Made by a program: the position numbers and the translations under genes | Notes under the pieces: model-generated | Seen by the model: the letters and a program-made list of their open reading frames with translations, nothing else | Database searches by the model: none | What the model was told of the DNA's origin: nothing | Shown here: piece by piece, positions 3,445 through 15,104 of the stretch | Numbering within the stretch: the stretch's first letter is position 1 | How the letters are laid out: every line of letters begins with the position of its first letter | Assembly (NCBI RefSeq): GCF_014904705.1 | Contig: NZ_JACZCQ010000015.1 | Location: 1 to 64,000, forward strand | Origin: Nisaea sediminum | GTDB taxonomy: Bacteria; Pseudomonadota; Alphaproteobacteria; Thalassobaculales; Thalassobaculaceae | DNA length: 64,000 bases | Direction of reading: 5' to 3'

Positions 3445-3626
3445 CAGCTTGTCCGGCCGACCGAACCGAATAGGCCAAGGCCGGCCGCAAGTGCCCCGCC
3501 AACGATCCAACCGGCCGGCGCAAGGAGCTGCCAGGCGCCGAATGCGATCGCCGCGGCGCCTCCGAATACCAGAACGACGTCAAGAGCCCGCCCGGCCATC
3601 GAACCGTATCCGCTTTGCTCGTTCAT
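3444..3626 (-). CDS. Small hydrophobic membrane protein of the head gene cluster
   Basis: A 60-residue protein with a short polar N-terminus and two hydrophobic stretches (VVLVFGGAAAIAFGAWQLLA and IVGGALAAGLGLFG), so probably two membrane passes. It lies between TerL and portal with a start overlapping the TerL stop and a stop overlapping the portal start. Small hydrophobic genes at this position recur in alphaproteobacterial prophages; I know of no assigned function. Confidence 0.7.
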   Translation of the reverse strand: MNEQSGYGSMAGRALDVVLVFGGAAAIAFGAWQLLAPAGWIVGGALAAGLGLFGSVGRTS

Positions 3627-5290
3627 CAGTCCTCACTATCCCAGAATGACCGGCCGCCGCGGGGCTCCGGGTTCATGCTCATGAGTGCGACCGCGTTGAA
3701 AGTCGCCATCAGAGGGTCGACCTTTCCCGCGCCGGATTTCTGTTTCGTGATCAGGATGGCGTTACCTTTCGGCTCCTGCCGCGCATTGCCGACGCACCAG
3801 TTCATCATTCGCATGCCGGCATGGAGCATGCCGCCGGCAGCGAGTTTCCGTTCCGTGGTCTTGATGGCTCCGGAAAGCTTCCAGCCTTGCGGAATTCCAA
3901 CAATCTGCTTTTCGTCAAGGCCCAGATCCTCGAGCGCGTCGAGAATTGCCCCGATGCCGGCGGGGTCAACCCCGACCTCCGCCAGCTTTCCGGAGTCCTT
4001 CACCAGCGCAACGAGGTCGACAACGTCGGCCACGTCATCGCCGACCGCCTTAACGATGGTCAGGTCTCCGTCCTTCTCGAAGTCCTTGTAGCGCGGCGCT
4101 TCTCGCTGCCTTCGCTTGAGCGCCGATGGGTGGGCCCACGCATGGTTCCAGGCGAGCCAGTCGTTCGTCACGGCGCACCGGCCCAAGATGCAGAGACCTA
4201 AGAGGTCGTCCAGGCCGCCGCCGTCAATTCCGACCGTAATTACCCGGGCCCGCCGGATGATTTCGGTCAAAGTCAAACTCTGGTTTGCCGAGGCCTCCCA
4301 GAATTCCGCGCCGGGCCAGCGGTCCGACTGAAGCCCAAGCCCAATCTCGACATTCAGATGCTTGGCGAGAAAGACGCGGAGTTCTTCCTCCCCGTCGTTC
4401 TGAGCCTTGGCGAGTTCCCGCTCAAGAAAGGCCGTATCGACCGAAACGCCGAGGTTCGGGTTTGTGATCCCGAAATTCGCGGGGTCCAGGTGTGCGTCCG
4501 AGTCCAGCATCGCCTGCGGAAACTCGTAGATCACCGGCAAGCTGACCGGATCATCGATTTTCCCGTCCCGGACGTTACGGTGATAATCGAGCTTCTGCTT
4601 GAACACGCCCGCCGGCGGATCGTCCGACTGCGTCGACAGAAACATCAGGAAGCCTTCGGGCCGGGACGCCAGCCCGCCGGTTGCCTCTCTGAGCATCTTC
4701 GCCGCGGCGGCACGCTTGCCGAAGAGCCACAACTCGTCAACCAGGACGCCCGTTGCTTTCTTCCCGGAAACCGTCTCGCTGTCCGCTGCTACAACCTTCA
4801 ACTGTGTCCCGGTTTGCCGGTGCGTGATCGTCCTGATGTGATCCTGCACGTGCATGATTTCGGCGAGCTCTTCATCGAGCGCCACCATGCCGCTTGCCGG
4901 GCTGAATGCGTTGTCCGCGACTTCCTTTGTCGGCGCCAGTATCAGGAACTCGGCGAACATTCGCCAATTGCGAATGATGGCCGTCATCATGATGCCGGCC
5001 GCCAGGGTCGACTTGATGTTCTTCTTCGAGACCAGGAGGAAGAACTCTTGGATCTTGCGTCGACCGGTCTCTGCGTCGTACGCCCCGAAAATCGCCGCTA
5101 CCAGGTCAAACACCCAAGGCTTGCACGCTTCACCGAAAGTCGGCTGCCCGGGGGCGTCGGCGATCCTCAGGGACTTGAACACCTTGAGCGCCTCTTCCGC
5201 CTCGTTCGGGAAAAGCGGCTCAATTGGAACGAGCGAACGCCCCTCCCGGATCCTCGTTTCCCAATCGGGGCAGGCCGTGGACCACTTCAC
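3626..5290 (-). CDS. Terminase large subunit
   Basis: The 554-residue packaging motor and headful/cos nuclease. The N-terminal ATPase shows a Walker A-like KKNIKSTLAAG near residue 89 and a Walker B at TGVLVDELWLFG near residue 182. The C-terminal nuclease contains the acidic patch ITVGIDGGGLDDLLGL near residue 350 and GVDPAGIGAILDAL near 455. The GTG start at 5290 overlaps the TerS TGA (GTGA), typical of coupled TerS-TerL translation. The length is normal for this Terminase_1-like family. Confidence 0.93.
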   Translation of the reverse strand: MKWSTACPDWETRIREGRSLVPIEPLFPNEAEEALKVFKSLRIADAPGQPTFGEACKPWVFDLVAAIFGAYDAETGRRKIQEFFLLVSKKNIKSTLAAGIMMTAIIRNWRMFAEFLILAPTKEVADNAFSPASGMVALDEELAEIMHVQDHIRTITHRQTGTQLKVVAADSETVSGKKATGVLVDELWLFGKRAAAAKMLREATGGLASRPEGFLMFLSTQSDDPPAGVFKQKLDYHRNVRDGKIDDPVSLPVIYEFPQAMLDSDAHLDPANFGITNPNLGVSVDTAFLERELAKAQNDGEEELRVFLAKHLNVEIGLGLQSDRWPGAEFWEASANQSLTLTEIIRRARVITVGIDGGGLDDLLGLCILGRCAVTNDWLAWNHAWAHPSALKRRQREAPRYKDFEKDGDLTIVKAVGDDVADVVDLVALVKDSGKLAEVGVDPAGIGAILDALEDLGLDEKQIVGIPQGWKLSGAIKTTERKLAAGGMLHAGMRMMNWCVGNARQEPKGNAILITKQKSGAGKVDPLMATFNAVALMSMNPEPRGGRSFWDSED

Positions 5291-5798: not shown

Positions 5799-6128
5799 TT
5801 ACCCCTTCATCCGGGCCGCGCGGGCCTTGATGGTCTTCCTCGTGTGGCAGCGCCCGCAGCGCAGCATCACGTTTGCCTTGTCGAGCGGAGCGCCGCCGTC
5901 CTTCAGTTCAACGATGTGATCGCCGAACACCCGGACTCGACCGCCCGCCTCGTCAAGTGTCCGCCCGCATTCCTCGCACTTCCGGCCGCGCTCGCGGATG
6001 ATCGCGGCCATCAGCCGCCGCCATTCCGGCGACGCGTAGAAAGGATCCGCCTTCTTGGGCTCCGGAGCGGCGGTACGGCGAAGGTCGCGCGTTGTTACCC
6101 GCTCCCGAAGCCGAGCGAGCCGGCTCAC
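5799..6128 (-). CDS. HNH endonuclease
   Basis: A 109-residue HNH protein. The beta-beta-alpha metal core is visible: CEECG near residue 60, DHIVELKDGG (the HNH His) near 77, and NVMLRCGRCHTRKT near 94, so four Cys form a structural zinc site. In cos phages an HNH protein next to TerS stimulates specific cleavage by the terminase. The GTG start overlaps the TGA of the upstream gene (GTGA). The catalytic call is strong; the packaging role is by context. Confidence 0.88.
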   Translation of the reverse strand: MSRLARLRERVTTRDLRRTAAPEPKKADPFYASPEWRRLMAAIIRERGRKCEECGRTLDEAGGRVRVFGDHIVELKDGGAPLDKANVMLRCGRCHTRKTIKARAARMKG

Positions 6129-6477: not shown

Positions 6478-6657
6478 CTATGCCGCCGTGTCAACCAGCA
6501 GCGTTTCCATCACCGTTTCGATAAACGCCTGTGCTTGCGGCCCGACGAGCGCGTTGCCGTAGCCTCTGAGCATCCCCGCGCGGGACTTTCCTTCATAGGG
6601 GCTGCCCGATCCCAGGCGGAAGTCAGCCCCATCAACCAGCGGCTGTGAGCCGGGCCC
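6478..6657 (-). pseudogene. Fragment of a second phage cytosine methyltransferase (C-terminus only)
   Basis: About 60 codons match the last part of the full methyltransferase at 10122-11156. PLVDGADFRLGSGSPYEGK and MLRGYGNALVGPQAQAFIE correspond to PLVNGSAFKLGSGSPFEGK and MLRGYGNALDSEQAQAFIE. Nothing upstream resembles the catalytic domain, so this is a truncated duplicate or a remnant of recombination. The alternative frame also keeps the PAHSRWLMGL motif found in the alternative frame of the full gene. Confidence 0.75.
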
Positions 6658-6730
6658 TCCGGAGGGAAGGCGGGGCCGGTTATCCGTTGAGCGGTGCCGC
6701 CGCTCGGCTTTGGGTGCGCTAACACCCGGG

Positions 6731-6746
6731 CCCCCGCCGGCGGGGG
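6731..6746. repeat. 16-bp GC palindrome
   Basis: CCCCCGCCGGCGGGGG is a perfect self-complementary block between the methyltransferase fragment and the tRNA-like element. The 6658-6787 interval contains other short hairpins, such as GGGTG-N6-CACCC. I see no gene in it; it may be a processing or recombination scar. Confidence 0.45.
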
Positions 6747-6787
6747 ATTCTATAGGGGGGATACGCGCGAAGCGGAGGCAACCCGCG

Positions 6788-6913
6788 TTTGACCTAACGG
6801 ACGGTGTGGGATTCCAACCCACGGACCCCGCACCATTGCCGCCTGCGCCAGCGGTGAGAGGCCTTGCGTCAGGTCACCGTTCAGCCACTCCGGCAACCGT
6901 CCGCTAGGTCAAA
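6788..6913 (-). ncRNA. Degenerate tRNA-Ser-like element inside an 18-bp inverted repeat
   Basis: On the minus strand, a 7-bp acceptor stem GGACGGT/ACCGTCC (6896-6902 with 6799-6805) encloses a serine-type D arm (CCGGAGTGGCTGAACGG). A T arm GTGGG-TTGGAAT-CCCAC directly precedes the acceptor 3' strand. The T loop has G where C56 is expected, no canonical 7-nt anticodon arm can be drawn, and the body is ~105 nt, too long for a normal type II tRNA. The acceptor stem extends outward to 18 bp with one mismatch (6788-6805 against 6896-6913). No CCA is encoded. It is tRNA-derived but probably not a working tRNA. Confidence 0.5.
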
Positions 6914-9918: not shown

Positions 9919-10153
9919 CCTGCTGACCAGAGCCGGATTGGCCCTGTATGGCGAGAGGTGGCAATCTCCTCTCGCCCGAGACCTGAGAATTTCCGACCGC
10001 ACCATGAGGCGATGGGTAGCGGGCGCGGGCGTGCCTGACAGCGTCGCGACCGAGCTGCAGGCGATGCTACGCGCCAGAGCGGAGAACATCGCGGCAATAT
10101 CCGAAGAGCTTGCGGCGTTGATCACGGCAGCACCTCCATCACCGCCTCGATGA
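9899..10153 (+). CDS. Small helix-turn-helix regulator
   Basis: An 84-residue protein (81 if the second ATG at 9908 is used). A HTH lies in SPLARDLRISDRTMRRWVAG, followed by a helical tail. The likely role is repression of its own promoter through the TATGTCCTA palindrome upstream. Its end overlaps the 3' end of the oppositely oriented methyltransferase gene by ~32 bases, so the two are convergent. Confidence 0.7.
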   Translation: MTLMQTDLLTRAGLALYGERWQSPLARDLRISDRTMRRWVAGAGVPDSVATELQAMLRARAENIAAISEELAALITAAPPSPPR

Positions 10154-11156
10154 AGGCTTGCGCCTGTTCGGAGTCGAGCGCGTTGCCGTATCCCCGGAGC
10201 ATTTCCGCGCGGTTTTTGCCTTCAAAGGGGCTGCCAGATCCCAACTTGAAGGCAGACCCATTAACCAACGGGAATGTGCCGGGTTCAACTGGTCGCCACT
10301 TTCCATCCCGGCAGAAGAGCCAGTCAGCATCTGACCAGAAACCGTTAACCGGGCCGGGCAGGCTGTTTCCGTAACGAGGCCCAGATTCGAGAGGCGCGAC
10401 TTGTCCTTGTCCCCCTGATCGTTCTGGTATTCGCCGCGGTCGCTGTCCATTCTCGTCGGAGATTGCCAGCCCGCCAGCAATTCCACCGTCTTCCGGCTGC
10501 GCTCCGATCCGTCCGGGTTTGTCCCGGTCAGCGCCATGCCGGCCGTGTCCTTCCAGTCCCGCGCCGACGCCGTCGACCAGCCGCTCAATCCCAAGTCGGG
10601 CGAATATCCGGTCGAGTTCTTCGGCTGCTCCGGGGAAGAGGTATTCGAACGCAGCAGCGACGAAATATTGCCTTTGGCGGATGTGGGGGGCTCCGACGCT
10701 CGCAGCGCAGATATCAGTCGACCAGCAGGCGTGCGCCTGTGCTTCCAGGTCATCACATACAAGGTCGATCCACGCGAGGCCGTCCGGAGACGCAACCTGT
10801 TCACCAAGGAGCGGTATATGTCGGCCCTTTCCGTGGCGAAGCTGGTATTCGAAATACGGCCATAGGTGCCGCTCGTCAGCAAACCCATCTCCTTTGCCTG
10901 CGCCGGAGAAAGGCTGGCAGGGGCAGGATGCGGTCCAGACGGGGCGATCGTCGGGCCATCCGGCGCGTCGGAGGGCGTAGGGCCAGACCCCGATTCCGGC
11001 GAAGGCGTGGACTTGATCGTATCCAGCAAGTTCATCTGGCCGAATGTCCTTGATGTCTCGCTCATAGACTTCTCCCGGAGTGATCTCGCCCGCGGCGATG
11101 AGATTGCGCAGCCATTGGGCCGCGTAGGGGTGATTTTCGATGTAGGCGGCGGTCAT
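10122..11156 (-). CDS. Phage DNA cytosine-C5 methyltransferase
   Basis: A 344-residue C5 methyltransferase of the phage type. SAM-binding motif I is VHAFAGIGVWPYALRRAGWP (about 49-68), the catalytic Cys loop is SCPCQPFSGAGKG near 78-90, GEQVASPDG stands near 117, and SVGAPHIRQRQYFVA near 155. The C-terminal target region ends with FCRDGKWRPVEPGTFPL and MLRGYGNAL. The protein modifies phage or host DNA, possibly to escape restriction; its target is unknown. The start matches the family N-terminus. The gene is convergent with the HTH gene and almost completely contains another frame (10139-11065) with its own signals. Its C-terminus is duplicated at 6478-6657. Confidence 0.9.
   Translation of the reverse strand: MTAAYIENHPYAAQWLRNLIAAGEITPGEVYERDIKDIRPDELAGYDQVHAFAGIGVWPYALRRAGWPDDRPVWTASCPCQPFSGAGKGDGFADERHLWPYFEYQLRHGKGRHIPLLGEQVASPDGLAWIDLVCDDLEAQAHACWSTDICAASVGAPHIRQRQYFVAAAFEYLFPGAAEELDRIFARLGIERLVDGVGAGLEGHGRHGADRDKPGRIGAQPEDGGIAGGLAISDENGQRPRRIPERSGGQGQVAPLESGPRYGNSLPGPVNGFWSDADWLFCRDGKWRPVEPGTFPLVNGSAFKLGSGSPFEGKNRAEMLRGYGNALDSEQAQAFIEAVMEVLP
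10139..11065 (-). CDS. Overprinted protein in an alternative frame of the cytosine methyltransferase gene
   Basis: A 308-codon frame nested in the methyltransferase gene on the same strand. The ATG at 11065 has GGGAGAAG a few bases upstream. The product is Ser/Thr/Pro-rich and carries stretches I associate with widespread phage proteins of unknown function: LYVMTWKHRRTPAGRLISAL, GWSTASARDWKDTAGM with TGTNPDGS, LLAGWQSPTRMD, ARLTVSGQMLTGSSAGM, and LNPAHSRWLMGLPSSWD. Compared with the fragment at 6478-6657, the 30 bases encoding PAHSRWLMGL differ at seven positions, all silent in this frame but altering four methyltransferase residues. Translation and function are unproven; the composition is unusual. 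Confidence 0.6.
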   Translation of the reverse strand: MSETSRTFGQMNLLDTIKSTPSPESGSGPTPSDAPDGPTIAPSGPHPAPASLSPAQAKEMGLLTSGTYGRISNTSFATERADIYRSLVNRLRLRTASRGSTLYVMTWKHRRTPAGRLISALRASEPPTSAKGNISSLLRSNTSSPEQPKNSTGYSPDLGLSGWSTASARDWKDTAGMALTGTNPDGSERSRKTVELLAGWQSPTRMDSDRGEYQNDQGDKDKSRLSNLGLVTETACPARLTVSGQMLTGSSAGMESGDQLNPAHSRWLMGLPSSWDLAAPLKAKTARKCSGDTATRSTPNRRKPSSRR

Positions 11157-11610: not shown

Positions 11611-12324
11611 TCAGTCCTCCTTGATCAATCCGGATTTCTCAGGGGGTTGTTCGCTCGGGTCGTAATCGCCCGGGCATTCGAGGTCCCGCCGGCAGGGCGG
11701 AATCCAGTCGAACTTCGTCTCAGCCGGACGCGGCGGCGGAAACCAGACGATCCAGCAATAGGCGGTCGCGGTACTCGGCTTCTTCTTGCGCCCGGCTTCG
11801 GCGTCCCAATAGGGGAGCGCCGGATCCCGGCAGCGGTCTTTCGCCATGATGACCCGCTCGGCGAACTGCAGGATCACCGACGGAGGGCTGACCTTGAAAA
11901 GGCCCTCGAAACGCCCGCCCCCTTCGAGAAACGCGGTACGGGCGAGCGCCGCCACGCCGACGCTTTCGAACGAGAGCGCCCGTGTGATGAATTCCAGCCC
12001 AAGCCGGAAAGGAAAATTGAAGAATATCCAGTCTTCGCCGCGCGGCTCCGCGCCCGGGAAGAGGAAGTCTTCAACTTCCGCGCCGGCGCCGTGATCGAAA
12101 ACGTCGGAAGCCCGAACCTCCCGGAAATATTCGCGAAGCGGACGGACCATGTGCCCGCGCCCGCTGCACGGGTCCCAGGCTGTCATGGAAGGGCCAATCT
12201 GACCGTGCCGGTTCAGCCATCGAACCACCGCCCGCGTTGCCCATGGCGGCGTCGGGAAGAATTCGAGGCTGTCGTTCGGCTCGTGCCGCTGCGCCATGAC
12301 GGCGGAAGACGTGTTCTGGCTCAT
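11611..12324 (-). CDS. SAM-dependent adenine methyltransferase-like phage protein
   Basis: A 237-residue protein. EFFPTPPWATRAVVRWL begins the domain, and AWDPCSGRGHMVRPL (about 49-63) is SAM motif I. The catalytic motif IV position reads FFNFPFRLGLEFI where relatives have NPPF. RTAFLEGGGRFEGLF and STATAYCWIVWF also match this phage family. It would methylate adenine N6 in DNA if active, but the Pro-to-Phe change in motif IV could reduce or abolish activity. The stop/start overlap with the helicase-methylase gene shows coupling. Confidence 0.75.
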   Translation of the reverse strand: MSQNTSSAVMAQRHEPNDSLEFFPTPPWATRAVVRWLNRHGQIGPSMTAWDPCSGRGHMVRPLREYFREVRASDVFDHGAGAEVEDFLFPGAEPRGEDWIFFNFPFRLGLEFITRALSFESVGVAALARTAFLEGGGRFEGLFKVSPPSVILQFAERVIMAKDRCRDPALPYWDAEAGRKKKPSTATAYCWIVWFPPPRPAETKFDWIPPCRRDLECPGDYDPSEQPPEKSGLIKED

Positions 12325-15104
12325 GCCGCGCGTCCCCCCACCGCCGCTTCCGCCTCGATCACGTCGAACAGGCCCGGCGTCTGGACCTTGCGTTCCATGG
12401 CCTGCAGGTAGCTCACGCCGTCCAGGAAATACTGGTGGTGCAATTCCACCGCCCGGCCGCGGCGCCCGAGCTTGAGCGCCCTCACCGGAACGGTCGCGAT
12501 CCCGCCGAACGGATCGAACACGAGCTCACCCTTGGCGGAGTACCGCTCTATGAGCCGGTCCACGATATCGAACTGGAGCGGACAGACGTGCATTTCGCGG
12601 CCCTTGGCGGCCTGCGCGCCGTTCAGCGTCCGCATGCGGTTCACGTCGTGCCAGACGTCCGGGTCCGCGCTGCCCGGGGCGAGCGACATGAAGGACGAGG
12701 GCAGGGCCCCGCGCGCTTCGAGCGCTTCGCCGATCCGGACATGCGCCTCGTAGTCGTAGACCCCTTTGAGGCTCCACTCGGTAAAGGCCTTGGCGAGAGC
12801 GTCGGGACCGAGCCGGGCGAGTTCGTCCGGCGTCATCAGCCGTTCGCCGCTGGACCGCCAGAAGGCGTGGGCGTCGACCTGCCACCGGGCAAGGCTGTAA
12901 TCCTCCGCCGACTTCGCCACCCGCTGGTCCGCGTACCCTTTCGAGAGGTCGCTTTGCGGCTTCGCGAAGAGCAGGACGTATTCCGGCGACCCGACGCCCA
13001 TCTTCGTGGCGTCCTTGCGCATCTCGGTATAGCCGAGGCGGTAGGTCTGGTTGTTTTCCCGCACCACGTCGGTGATCACCGTGATCATCCCCATGAAGAG
13101 GAATCCGTGGCGCTGATAGTGAAAGATCGCCTCGGCGTGGAACGGGCTCACGGTCGGCCGGCCGTAGCCGGTGACGTTCCCGAACAGGATCCGGTCCTTG
13201 ACGTGGATGCAGGCAATCCGGCCGGGCTTCATGACCCGGAGCAGTTCCGGCGTCAGGTGGTCCATTTGGCCCCAGAAATGCCCGTTGTCGTCGGTGTGAC
13301 CGAAATCGTTGTAGGACGCGACGTACTCGTAATGGTTCGAGAACGGAATCGAGGTCACCACCAGGTCGACGCTATTCGTGTCCATCGCCTTGGTTTCCTC
13401 GACGCAGTCGTTGTTAGCGAAGAGCCAGGCGTCGCCGGCGGCTTCGATGCGATCGACGCCGATGGAGCGGCTGAGAACTTCGGCCATGGCCAACTGATTG
13501 AGGCCGTACTTGCGGACGATCTCCGTCATCTTCTCCACCATCCTTTCGTGGTCGGACCATTTGCGCTGTAGATCCCGCCAGGTTTCCCGTTCCGCTTCCG
13601 TGAAGATCACGTGCACCTCGACGGGGTGCCGCTGCAGGAACCGCTGGATCCGGTGAATGGACTGGATGAAATCGTTGAACTTGTGCCCGATGCCGACGAA
13701 CACGGCCTTGTGGCAGTGCCGCTGCAGGTTGGTGCCGCTGCCGGCGATGATCGGTTTCGCGGAGAGGTACTGGCTTCGGCCGTCCGAGAAATCGGCGATT
13801 GCCGTTTCCCGATCCTCGAGGTCCTGCGAGCCGTAGACGCTGACGGCGGACGGGACCGCCTTTGCGATCGCATGCCGCTCCGCCTCGAGGTCGTGCCAGA
13901 GAATGAAATGATCCGCCGGCGCGGCCTCAAGGATCCGCACCATCTCGGCAACCCGGGCGGGGATGCTTTCGCGCTTCACTCGCGCCGCGTCGACCACCCC
14001 CACCGCCGCGTCCTCGATCAGGCGGCCTTGCCCGTCCCGTTCGAACTCGTAGCGGATCACGTCGCGGGTGACCTCGTGTTCCACCACCGAGAGCGGCGGA
14101 AGGTCGTATCCCTCGTCGCTGAAGCCGAGGTCGGAGGGTTTCGCGACGAAGGCGGCCCAACTGGCGAGCCAGAGCCAGAACTCTTGTTCCTTGTGCGGGA
14201 ACAGCGTCAGCTTGTTTGCCTTCTTGCTGTCGCGCTTGAAGAAGCGGGTGAGGGCCTGCCCGGTATCCATCACCCCGAGGTAGCCGGCGTAATGCACCAG
14301 TTCCTTGTACCGGTTCGGCGCGGGTGTCGCGGTCGCGACGAAACGGAACGGGACAGCGTCGAAGAGCGGCAGGAAGGTCTGGAAGGTCTTTGACCCGTAG
14401 GACCGGAGCACGCTCGCTTCGTCCAGGGAGGTCACCACGAAGTCGGCCGGGTCGAGCTTGCCCTCGCGCACTGTCTCGTAGTTCGTGAGATAAAGCCCAC
14501 CGTCCCGGGCCTGCTCGATCGAGCGAATGAAGGTGATATGGCAAAGCCGGTCCGGCCGCCATTCCCGCCATTTGCGCAGCGCTTCCCGCTGCTCGTCGGT
14601 GATGTCCGGGTGATTGCCGGTGCGCAGCAGTTCGGCGTCGCGAAGGAACTCCGCCCGCACACCGAGCGGCGCGACGATCAGGCCGCGCCCGCCGAGATAT
14701 TCGGAAACGATCCGGATGATTTCCAGCTGGATAAGGCTCTTGCCGAGCCCGAAGGCGGCGAAGATCGCGCGGCGGCCGCCCTTGACCGCCCAGATGACCA
14801 GCGCGACCTGGTGCGGCTTCAGGATCGGGTTGACGTCTTCCGGGCCAATATCGAAGCCGTGAAAGTCCGCCATGCGGATCTTGGCCTCAAGGAATGCCCT
14901 GTAGGGATCCTCGGACGGCCCCGGCGGCGGTACCGTGAGGCCGCGGCGAAGCCGGAAGGTCCGCCAGATGTCCTCATTCCGGTGCAGGAAGCCGATGACG
15001 GCATCCTTTGACTTGCCGATTTCGGCGCCTATGGCCGCCGTCGAGAGGGTCGTTTCCGCCGCGAAGCGCGCCACAGCCGCCCGCATTTCGTGGTTCCAGG
15101 TCAT
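12321..15104 (-). CDS. SF2 helicase / DNA methyltransferase fusion
   Basis: A 927-residue protein with three parts. An N-terminal ~45-residue GcrA/HTH-like segment contains LSTAAIGAEIGKSKDAVIGF. An SF2 helicase core (about 90-560) has FAAFGLGKSLIQLE as motif I, SLDEASVLR as a variant DEAx box, ATATPAPNRYKEL as motif III and QSIHRIQRFLQRH as motif VI. A C-terminal N4/N6 methyltransferase has VTSIPFSNHYEY at motif IV near residue 608 and FDPFGGIATVPVRA at motif I near 860, so it is circularly ordered. TSIPF replaces the usual TSPPY, a change I recall as normal in this phage family. It lies between the GcrA gene and the smaller methyltransferase with overlapping starts and stops. Confidence 0.88.
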   Translation of the reverse strand: MTWNHEMRAAVARFAAETTLSTAAIGAEIGKSKDAVIGFLHRNEDIWRTFRLRRGLTVPPPGPSEDPYRAFLEAKIRMADFHGFDIGPEDVNPILKPHQVALVIWAVKGGRRAIFAAFGLGKSLIQLEIIRIVSEYLGGRGLIVAPLGVRAEFLRDAELLRTGNHPDITDEQREALRKWREWRPDRLCHITFIRSIEQARDGGLYLTNYETVREGKLDPADFVVTSLDEASVLRSYGSKTFQTFLPLFDAVPFRFVATATPAPNRYKELVHYAGYLGVMDTGQALTRFFKRDSKKANKLTLFPHKEQEFWLWLASWAAFVAKPSDLGFSDEGYDLPPLSVVEHEVTRDVIRYEFERDGQGRLIEDAAVGVVDAARVKRESIPARVAEMVRILEAAPADHFILWHDLEAERHAIAKAVPSAVSVYGSQDLEDRETAIADFSDGRSQYLSAKPIIAGSGTNLQRHCHKAVFVGIGHKFNDFIQSIHRIQRFLQRHPVEVHVIFTEAERETWRDLQRKWSDHERMVEKMTEIVRKYGLNQLAMAEVLSRSIGVDRIEAAGDAWLFANNDCVEETKAMDTNSVDLVVTSIPFSNHYEYVASYNDFGHTDDNGHFWGQMDHLTPELLRVMKPGRIACIHVKDRILFGNVTGYGRPTVSPFHAEAIFHYQRHGFLFMGMITVITDVVRENNQTYRLGYTEMRKDATKMGVGSPEYVLLFAKPQSDLSKGYADQRVAKSAEDYSLARWQVDAHAFWRSSGERLMTPDELARLGPDALAKAFTEWSLKGVYDYEAHVRIGEALEARGALPSSFMSLAPGSADPDVWHDVNRMRTLNGAQAAKGREMHVCPLQFDIVDRLIERYSAKGELVFDPFGGIATVPVRALKLGRRGRAVELHHQYFLDGVSYLQAMERKVQTPGLFDVIEAEAAVGGRAA

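Follow-up and report, generated by a model that had tools for sequence, protein, structure and literature searches.

A prophage-like C5 methyltransferase locus of Nisaea sediminum with a second, overprinted frame: very probably one split enzyme

The small chain of M.EcoHK31I is read from a different frame of the gene for its large chain, and as a kind the overprinted two-chain cytosine-5 (C5) DNA methyltransferase is already known. M.EcoHK31I is described as a two-polypeptide C5 methyltransferase for YGGCCR, with motifs I-VIII and X on the large chain and motif IX on the small one (PMC3404938), and since the small polypeptide holds motif IX, it is a working precedent for such a split. Judged by profile matches, the two overlapping frames described here, alpha and beta, have the same motif split (I-VIII and X on the large chain, IX on the small), and the gene of the small chain overlaps that of the large one out of frame, at +1 in 196 of 200 loci; the likeness to M.EcoHK31I is one of described layout. 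A target-recognition domain (TRD) is predicted in the large chain of M.EcoHK31I (PMC3404938), whereas here the TRD-like stretch is in beta too, and M.EcoHK31I is described as part of a restriction-modification system (PMC6456624), unlike alpha and beta. M.AquI is, like the enzyme proposed for alpha and beta, a natural two-chain split of a C5 enzyme, but its split is sequential (I-VIII and part of the variable region on one chain, the remainder and IX-X on the other), and overprinting goes unmentioned in the passage on it (PMC3404938). In C5 enzymes the variable or target-recognition region and motif IX occupy the interval between VIII and X (PMC3404938). Out-of-frame HNH insertions are reported from actinophage methylases (PMC11855218, PMC9957025); going by the abstracts, these are a different thing from the alpha/beta overlap.

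Among phages, WillSterrel gp71 and Filuzino gp68 share a beta-type segment between VIII and X, but theirs is in frame and part of one chain. K1ind2 (ORF29/ORF28, ‘Mte8-like’), Tadhana (gp54/gp55) and PhiXhv-28 carry +1 pairs as here, with both frames annotated, and their product names and notes state no functional link between the two. Among the matches listed, we found no description of the overlap as a general phage class in the open-licence literature.

The window, by which we mean the whole stretch of 64,000 nucleotides analysed, holds two frames on the same strand at the places where an earlier note on this DNA had put them (Table 1). The sequence blocks quoted there are present, and so is the ribosome site, GGGAGAAG, that it saw before the ATG of beta. 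Its description of the methyltransferase as complete did not hold: PCQPFSGAGKG (motif IV), GAPHIRQR (VIII) and GYGNAL (X, by eye) are found together in the alpha chain, but a motif IX of the form LTxRExxRLxGFP cannot be read in the alpha frame of the window.

Table 1. Position of alpha, beta and their motifs in the window.
Feature	Position	Strand	Remarks
alpha, C5 methyltransferase ORF (proposed large subunit)	10122-11156	(-)	344 aa; motifs I-VIII and X, without recognisable IX
beta, overprinted frame (proposed second subunit)	10139-11065	(-)	308 aa; +1 relative to alpha, nested inside it
Likely ribosome site of beta, GGGAGAAG	11069-11076	(-)	From sequence; upstream of ATG 11065
alpha motif IV PCQPFS with catalytic Cys, residues 79-84	10905-10922	(-)	P79, C80 and S84 invariant (n=50 sequences)
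alpha motif VIII GAPHIRQR, residues 155-162	10671-10694	(-)	R160 and R162 invariant (n=50 sequences)
alpha motif X LRGYGNAL, residues 320-327	10176-10199	(-)	L320, Y323, G324, N325 and A326 nearly invariant; assigned by eye
beta conserved N-terminal core, residues 85-124, ending GSTLYVMTWKHRRTPAGRLISALRAS	10694-10813	(-)	From conservation and model
beta putative target-recognition segment GWSTASARDWKDTAGM, residues 162-177	10535-10582	(-)	From conservation and profile match
beta motif IX candidate LNPAHSRWLMGLPSSWD, residues 260-276	10238-10288	(-)	alpha frame there reads VEPGTFPLVNGSAFKLG

Alpha matches PF00145 just above the cut-off (23.5 bits vs 22, residues 74-110) and phrog_363 (3.4e-60), while beta matches phrog_31772 (3.5e-23) and phrog_1008 (1.3e-20); for both chains the PHROGs label is ‘DNA methyltransferase’.

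With the large subunit of a terminase at 3626-5290 and an HNH nuclease at 5799-6128, the neighbourhood looks like a prophage. In the bacterial family of the window beta was found in 2 of 36 genomes, its own included (the other match is weak, E 6e-5), a rarity that fits a phage gene. About 1.2 kb from the C5 pair, 12321-15104 (-) encodes a 927-aa protein with an N6/N4 methylase domain (PF01555) at its C-terminal end, and DNA methyltransferases of two kinds seem to be present in the prophage. At 6478-6822 (-), some 3.3 kb downstream of the complete alpha/beta pair, lies a partial and decayed duplicate of its 3' end; both ends are still readable there, the end of alpha being 73% identical over residues 292-343 and that of beta including AHSRWLMG. 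Adjoining it at 6790-6900 (-) is what by eye appears to be part of a tRNA-Ser; ARAGORN reported no tRNA in the window.

The openness of the +1 frame in this one gene is only mild evidence for beta, 2.7 stops being expected after synonymous codon shuffling (P = 0.025). The longest +1 opening within the 29 presumed window genes of at least 300 aa, some of which may themselves be shadow frames, is that of alpha (337 codons; the next is 199), and +2 openings in the same set reach 689 codons. From the P-value, the long +2 openings and the raised similarity of other frames described below, it could be argued that the second frame is untranslated and that methyltransferase conservation together with GC-rich codon use accounts for its openness and similarity. 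The comparison with relatives argues strongly against this. A tblastn search with beta matched 198 phage records, and beta lies at +1 of a methyltransferase in 196 of the 200 loci fetched in this way (two hits to the own genome excluded, repeats included; 186 distinct beta DNA matches among the 197 loci with alpha). The remaining four comprise one locus with alpha and beta in a single frame (L022) and three near a contig end in which alpha was not matched (L029, L031, L035). Of the 192 +1 loci that do not lie at a contig end, 184 have both frames open; among the remaining eight, alpha is broken in six and beta in three, one locus having both interrupted. The stops inside the alpha match (L047, L087, L118, L157, L198, L200) and the beta match (L157, L171, L178; two of these three at about residue 8) possibly reflect decay or sequencing errors.

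Stops were counted against synonymous shuffling of alpha, with openness not required, after seven loci had been dropped beforehand and, per region, those whose alignment fell short of it. Over beta 61-280 there are 0 stops where about 530 are expected (168-189 loci), that is, none in residues 61-130, 131-220 and 221-280 against 245.5, 172.3 and 112.3 expected (189, 185 and 168 loci, respectively). In beta 1-60, 16 of 189 loci have stops, 24 in all, vs 124.8 expected. The fourfold-degenerate third bases of alpha, which would be free if alpha were the sole protein, are identical 1.29 times as often as expected before the start of beta, 2.08 times inside it and, at the peak, 3.20 times at alpha 282-301, where beta reads LNPAHSRWLMG (70 representatives).

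Selection was estimated for 47 independent pairs with 60-88% alpha identity, by simple counts without correction for multiple hits and after removal of 13 of the 197 loci (4 at a contig edge, 8 interrupted, 1 in frame). For beta dNN/dNS is 0.20 (0.16-0.25) and for alpha dNN/dSN is 0.13 (0.11-0.15). The constraints are complementary: over beta 1-60 beta is loose (0.61) and alpha tight (0.04), and over beta 130-220 beta is tight (0.14) and alpha loose (0.44), so that the Ser/Thr/Pro-rich head of beta is probably mostly passage and the stretch of alpha after motif VIII probably mostly linker. An SD core of at least 4 nt precedes 95 of 185 beta starts vs 700 of 5063 background positions; the start codon is ATG in 180 of the 185, a count biased by the preference of our script for ATG. 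In 68 of 69 pairs the identity in the +1 frame was higher than in any of 20 shuffles, but we set this pairwise test aside as weak because the +2 and the two antisense frames also rose above the shuffles in most pairs.

By this comparative evidence alpha and beta both evolve as protein-coding sequence and the overprinting is real, in agreement with the second protein on the methyltransferase gene that the earlier note had proposed: nonsynonymous change is depressed in both frames, and stops at chance frequency are not seen in the alternative one. The stop-free beta 61-280, wobble bases conserved up to 3.2-fold, the dNN/dNS of beta and the matching in-frame segment of single-chain enzymes (see below) leave an untranslated second frame extremely improbable.

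What beta may be is indicated by enzymes with a single chain. In the mycobacteriophage proteins WillSterrel gp71 and Filuzino gp68 one chain carries motifs I-VIII, LLPTP..., a motif such as RLNPAFPEWMMGWPTGWVT, and motif X, all in frame. A motif scan of the 30 loci found with the WillSterrel protein has the segment in frame in 22; the other eight comprise four without a scan hit for IV/VIII and four whose motif lies past the end of the ORF that was found. With hhalign, beta 127-301 aligns to the VIII-X segment of the single-chain enzymes (P 95.7, E 9.6e-9), whereas one reversed and eight column-shuffled controls gave P 0.2 or less. The alpha profile aligns to these enzymes over residues 3-175, i.e. 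I-VIII only (P 99.4), and to M.HhaI over 71-174; between the profiles of alpha and beta there is no match (P 0.3). Since its core matches the in-frame TRD/IX segment of single-chain methyltransferases, beta looks like a missing enzyme half, most likely the DNA-recognition half (TRD segment and motif IX) of the methyltransferase of alpha. Its TRD role is putative and rests on position and on a repetitive segment. LNPxxxRWLMGxPxxW we take to be motif IX, partly from its likeness to the motif of M.HhaI. The in-frame counterpart of the beta candidate in single-chain enzymes is LNPAFPEWMMGWPTGW, and in one locus (L205) the two readings of motif IX are locked together, LNPNWVEWLMGWPIGWTD in beta being VEPELGRVADGVANRVDR in alpha. 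In Filuzino (L210, 427-2034) beta-like strings, SGMTRNGRL...LLPTPRATDG, are readable in +1 before the in-frame segment, a hint of a past frame switch.

Conservation in beta is sharp only in about 20 residues around motif IX. Within residues 162-177, W163, T165, R169, W171, K172, D173, G176 and M177 are conserved in at least 90% of the sequences and D170 is invariant (n=27 sequences). Searches of Pfam and NCBIfam with beta gave no match, and a profile search of the PDB gave no relative (best E 0.16, an acyl-CoA carboxylase subunit). The model of beta alone is poor (pTM 0.28); it contains a helix at 77-96 and strands at 104-111 and 117-124 with pLDDT block means of about 75-93, and a fold search with it yielded no match at E 0.001 or better. 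The model of the single-chain enzyme matches M.HhaI (E 2.5e-14), with residues 162-302 below pLDDT 50, and its full-length alignments to M.HhaI have an rmsd of 13-15 and give motif IX no structural confirmation.

The SD enrichment at its start, its own constraint and the lack of a fold match for beta alone would also suit a genuine overprinted protein that has nothing to do with catalysis and serves another purpose, such as anti-restriction or regulation of the methyltransferase. We consider this unlikely, as the core of beta matches the TRD/IX segment of one-chain methyltransferases, alpha is without that segment, and in the 200 loci beta is accompanied by alpha except in three near a contig end. 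An anti-restriction or regulatory peptide had been guessed in the earlier note from the Ser/Thr/Pro-rich composition; the match of the core points elsewhere, and the N-terminus that is rich in these residues is the least constrained part of beta. The simple idea of a protein family born inside methyltransferase genes likewise finds no support, the core being a segment that single-chain enzymes carry in frame.

Because alpha is without motif IX and the core of beta matches the in-frame TRD/IX segment, we consider it highly probable that the locus encodes one split C5 DNA methyltransferase in two overlapping frames, the chains of which assemble into an active enzyme. Alpha (frame 0) would provide the SAM-binding and catalytic domain with motifs I-VIII, followed by a linker and motif X. 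Beta (frame +1), which has an ATG and a ribosome site of its own about 30 codons after the start of alpha, would supply the target-recognition segment and motif IX. The DNA would then be colinear with an ordinary methyltransferase gene (I-VIII, TRD, IX, X), with TRD-IX alone read one base out. Both chains would be made from the same message and join to give the active enzyme, whose most likely role would be to methylate the phage DNA and so shield it from host restriction; orphan phage methyltransferases are commonly supposed to protect phage DNA in this way (PMC9957025). Translation of beta in the cell, assembly, a need for both chains, methylation and protection are what we infer from the comparisons above, and at one further remove the split may have originated when a one-chain ancestor underwent a reciprocal frame change, so that the ancestral part of each protein now has the other overprinted on it.

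A +1 offset would also be expected if programmed frameshifting from alpha produced an I-VIII-TRD-IX fusion and no separate subunit, and alpha and beta are indeed merged in one frame in a few loci (L022, L316, L338, L404). However, frameshifting is very unlikely to be the explanation: SD sequences are enriched at the starts of beta, and residues 1-60 of beta, barely constrained, are nevertheless mostly open, which is what one would expect of translation that begins upstream of the core. Moreover, the fusion would be without motif X. L022 was considered as a fused ancestor and rejected, since alpha resumes in the third frame past the junction and an indel or assembly error is likelier.

In a search with distant beta motifs (best 80 of 501; six without classification) beta is at +1 in 73 of 74 classifiable loci and in frame in one, and in 69 of the 73 alpha reads through motif IX. 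A search with alpha I-VIII patterns, which avoid the motif IX of beta, samples relatives of its six seed alphas, themselves found through beta, and not all C5 enzymes; among its best 80 of 583 viral relatives, 69 have a beta-type motif IX in +1 (55 by pattern, 14 more by eye), two are merged in frame, two have their frames exchanged midway and seven are cut by contig ends, and none of the 80 has a classical in-frame motif IX, a count upheld when it was redone directly. By comparison, among the 30 best loci of classical PF00145 controls, 16 of which had no alpha hit, 12 of the 14 classifiable ones have a classical motif IX in frame, and a beta-type IX at +1 is present in none of the 14. Median +1 openings are 246 codons for the 55 loci and 70 for the 12 controls. 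Other sets of relatives comprised the best 80 of 162 and the best 80 of 575. In the two loci with exchanged frames (L331, L350) the alpha and beta readings swap midway, the +1 frame of L331 ending like alpha with GRVAHG...LGNAV and L350 having a similar string; the swap is due to an indel, which may be natural or an assembly error.

The overlapped pairs inspected belong to phages of Proteobacteria, Paenibacillus, Lacticaseibacillus, cyanobacteria and Tunturiibacter, and also to plasmids of Bacteroides and Pseudomonas. A plasmid search for a restriction-modification relative gave 11 records; in the two that were opened (L215, L216) no restriction gene is annotated within the 1.5 kb flanks. As far as these searches reach, the overprinted layout is widespread among phage methyltransferases. 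Strings like EPxxGRVADGVPNRVDR are common at the C-terminal end of methyltransferases in the databases. We are inclined, with some reserve, to the joint reading that overprinted split C5 methyltransferases form a large and ancient class, in which the TRD/IX part of many phage and prophage enzymes lies one base out of frame, the C-terminal EPxxGRVADGVPNRVDR of alpha would be the frame-0 shadow of LNPxWVEWLMGxPxGWTD in beta, the arrangement would stem from a reciprocal frame change in a one-chain ancestor, and most annotated members would be half-enzymes.

How such pairs are annotated was surveyed in 21 annotated regions, which were picked by hand and do not constitute a sample; an annotated overlapped pair is present in 18, and of the remaining three, two are single-chain genes and one is a record that has no annotation. 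Both frames are annotated in 3 of the 18 (Tadhana, K1ind2, PhiXhv-28), alpha alone in 10 (once as fragments) and beta alone, or part of it, in 5. The latter include PMG1, in which beta is called ‘hypothetical, similar to Mte8-like’ and the alpha frame, though open, has no annotation. That beta belongs to a common phage family, and that this family may often be misannotated, had both been suspected from the single sequence; the number of phage records matched by tblastn supports the former and the inconsistent treatment of the 18 records the latter.

If this interpretation is true, phage C5 methyltransferases have in many cases been annotated, and perhaps also cloned and assayed, with one half missing. 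Orphan methyltransferases found to be ‘inactive’, and methylomes to which no enzyme has been assigned, could be explained in this way. Same-strand overprinted genes would also gain a very broad set of examples, in which two subunits of one enzyme are tied to a single stretch of DNA, and, with in-frame relatives available for comparison, the origin and upkeep of a gene overlap would become directly testable.
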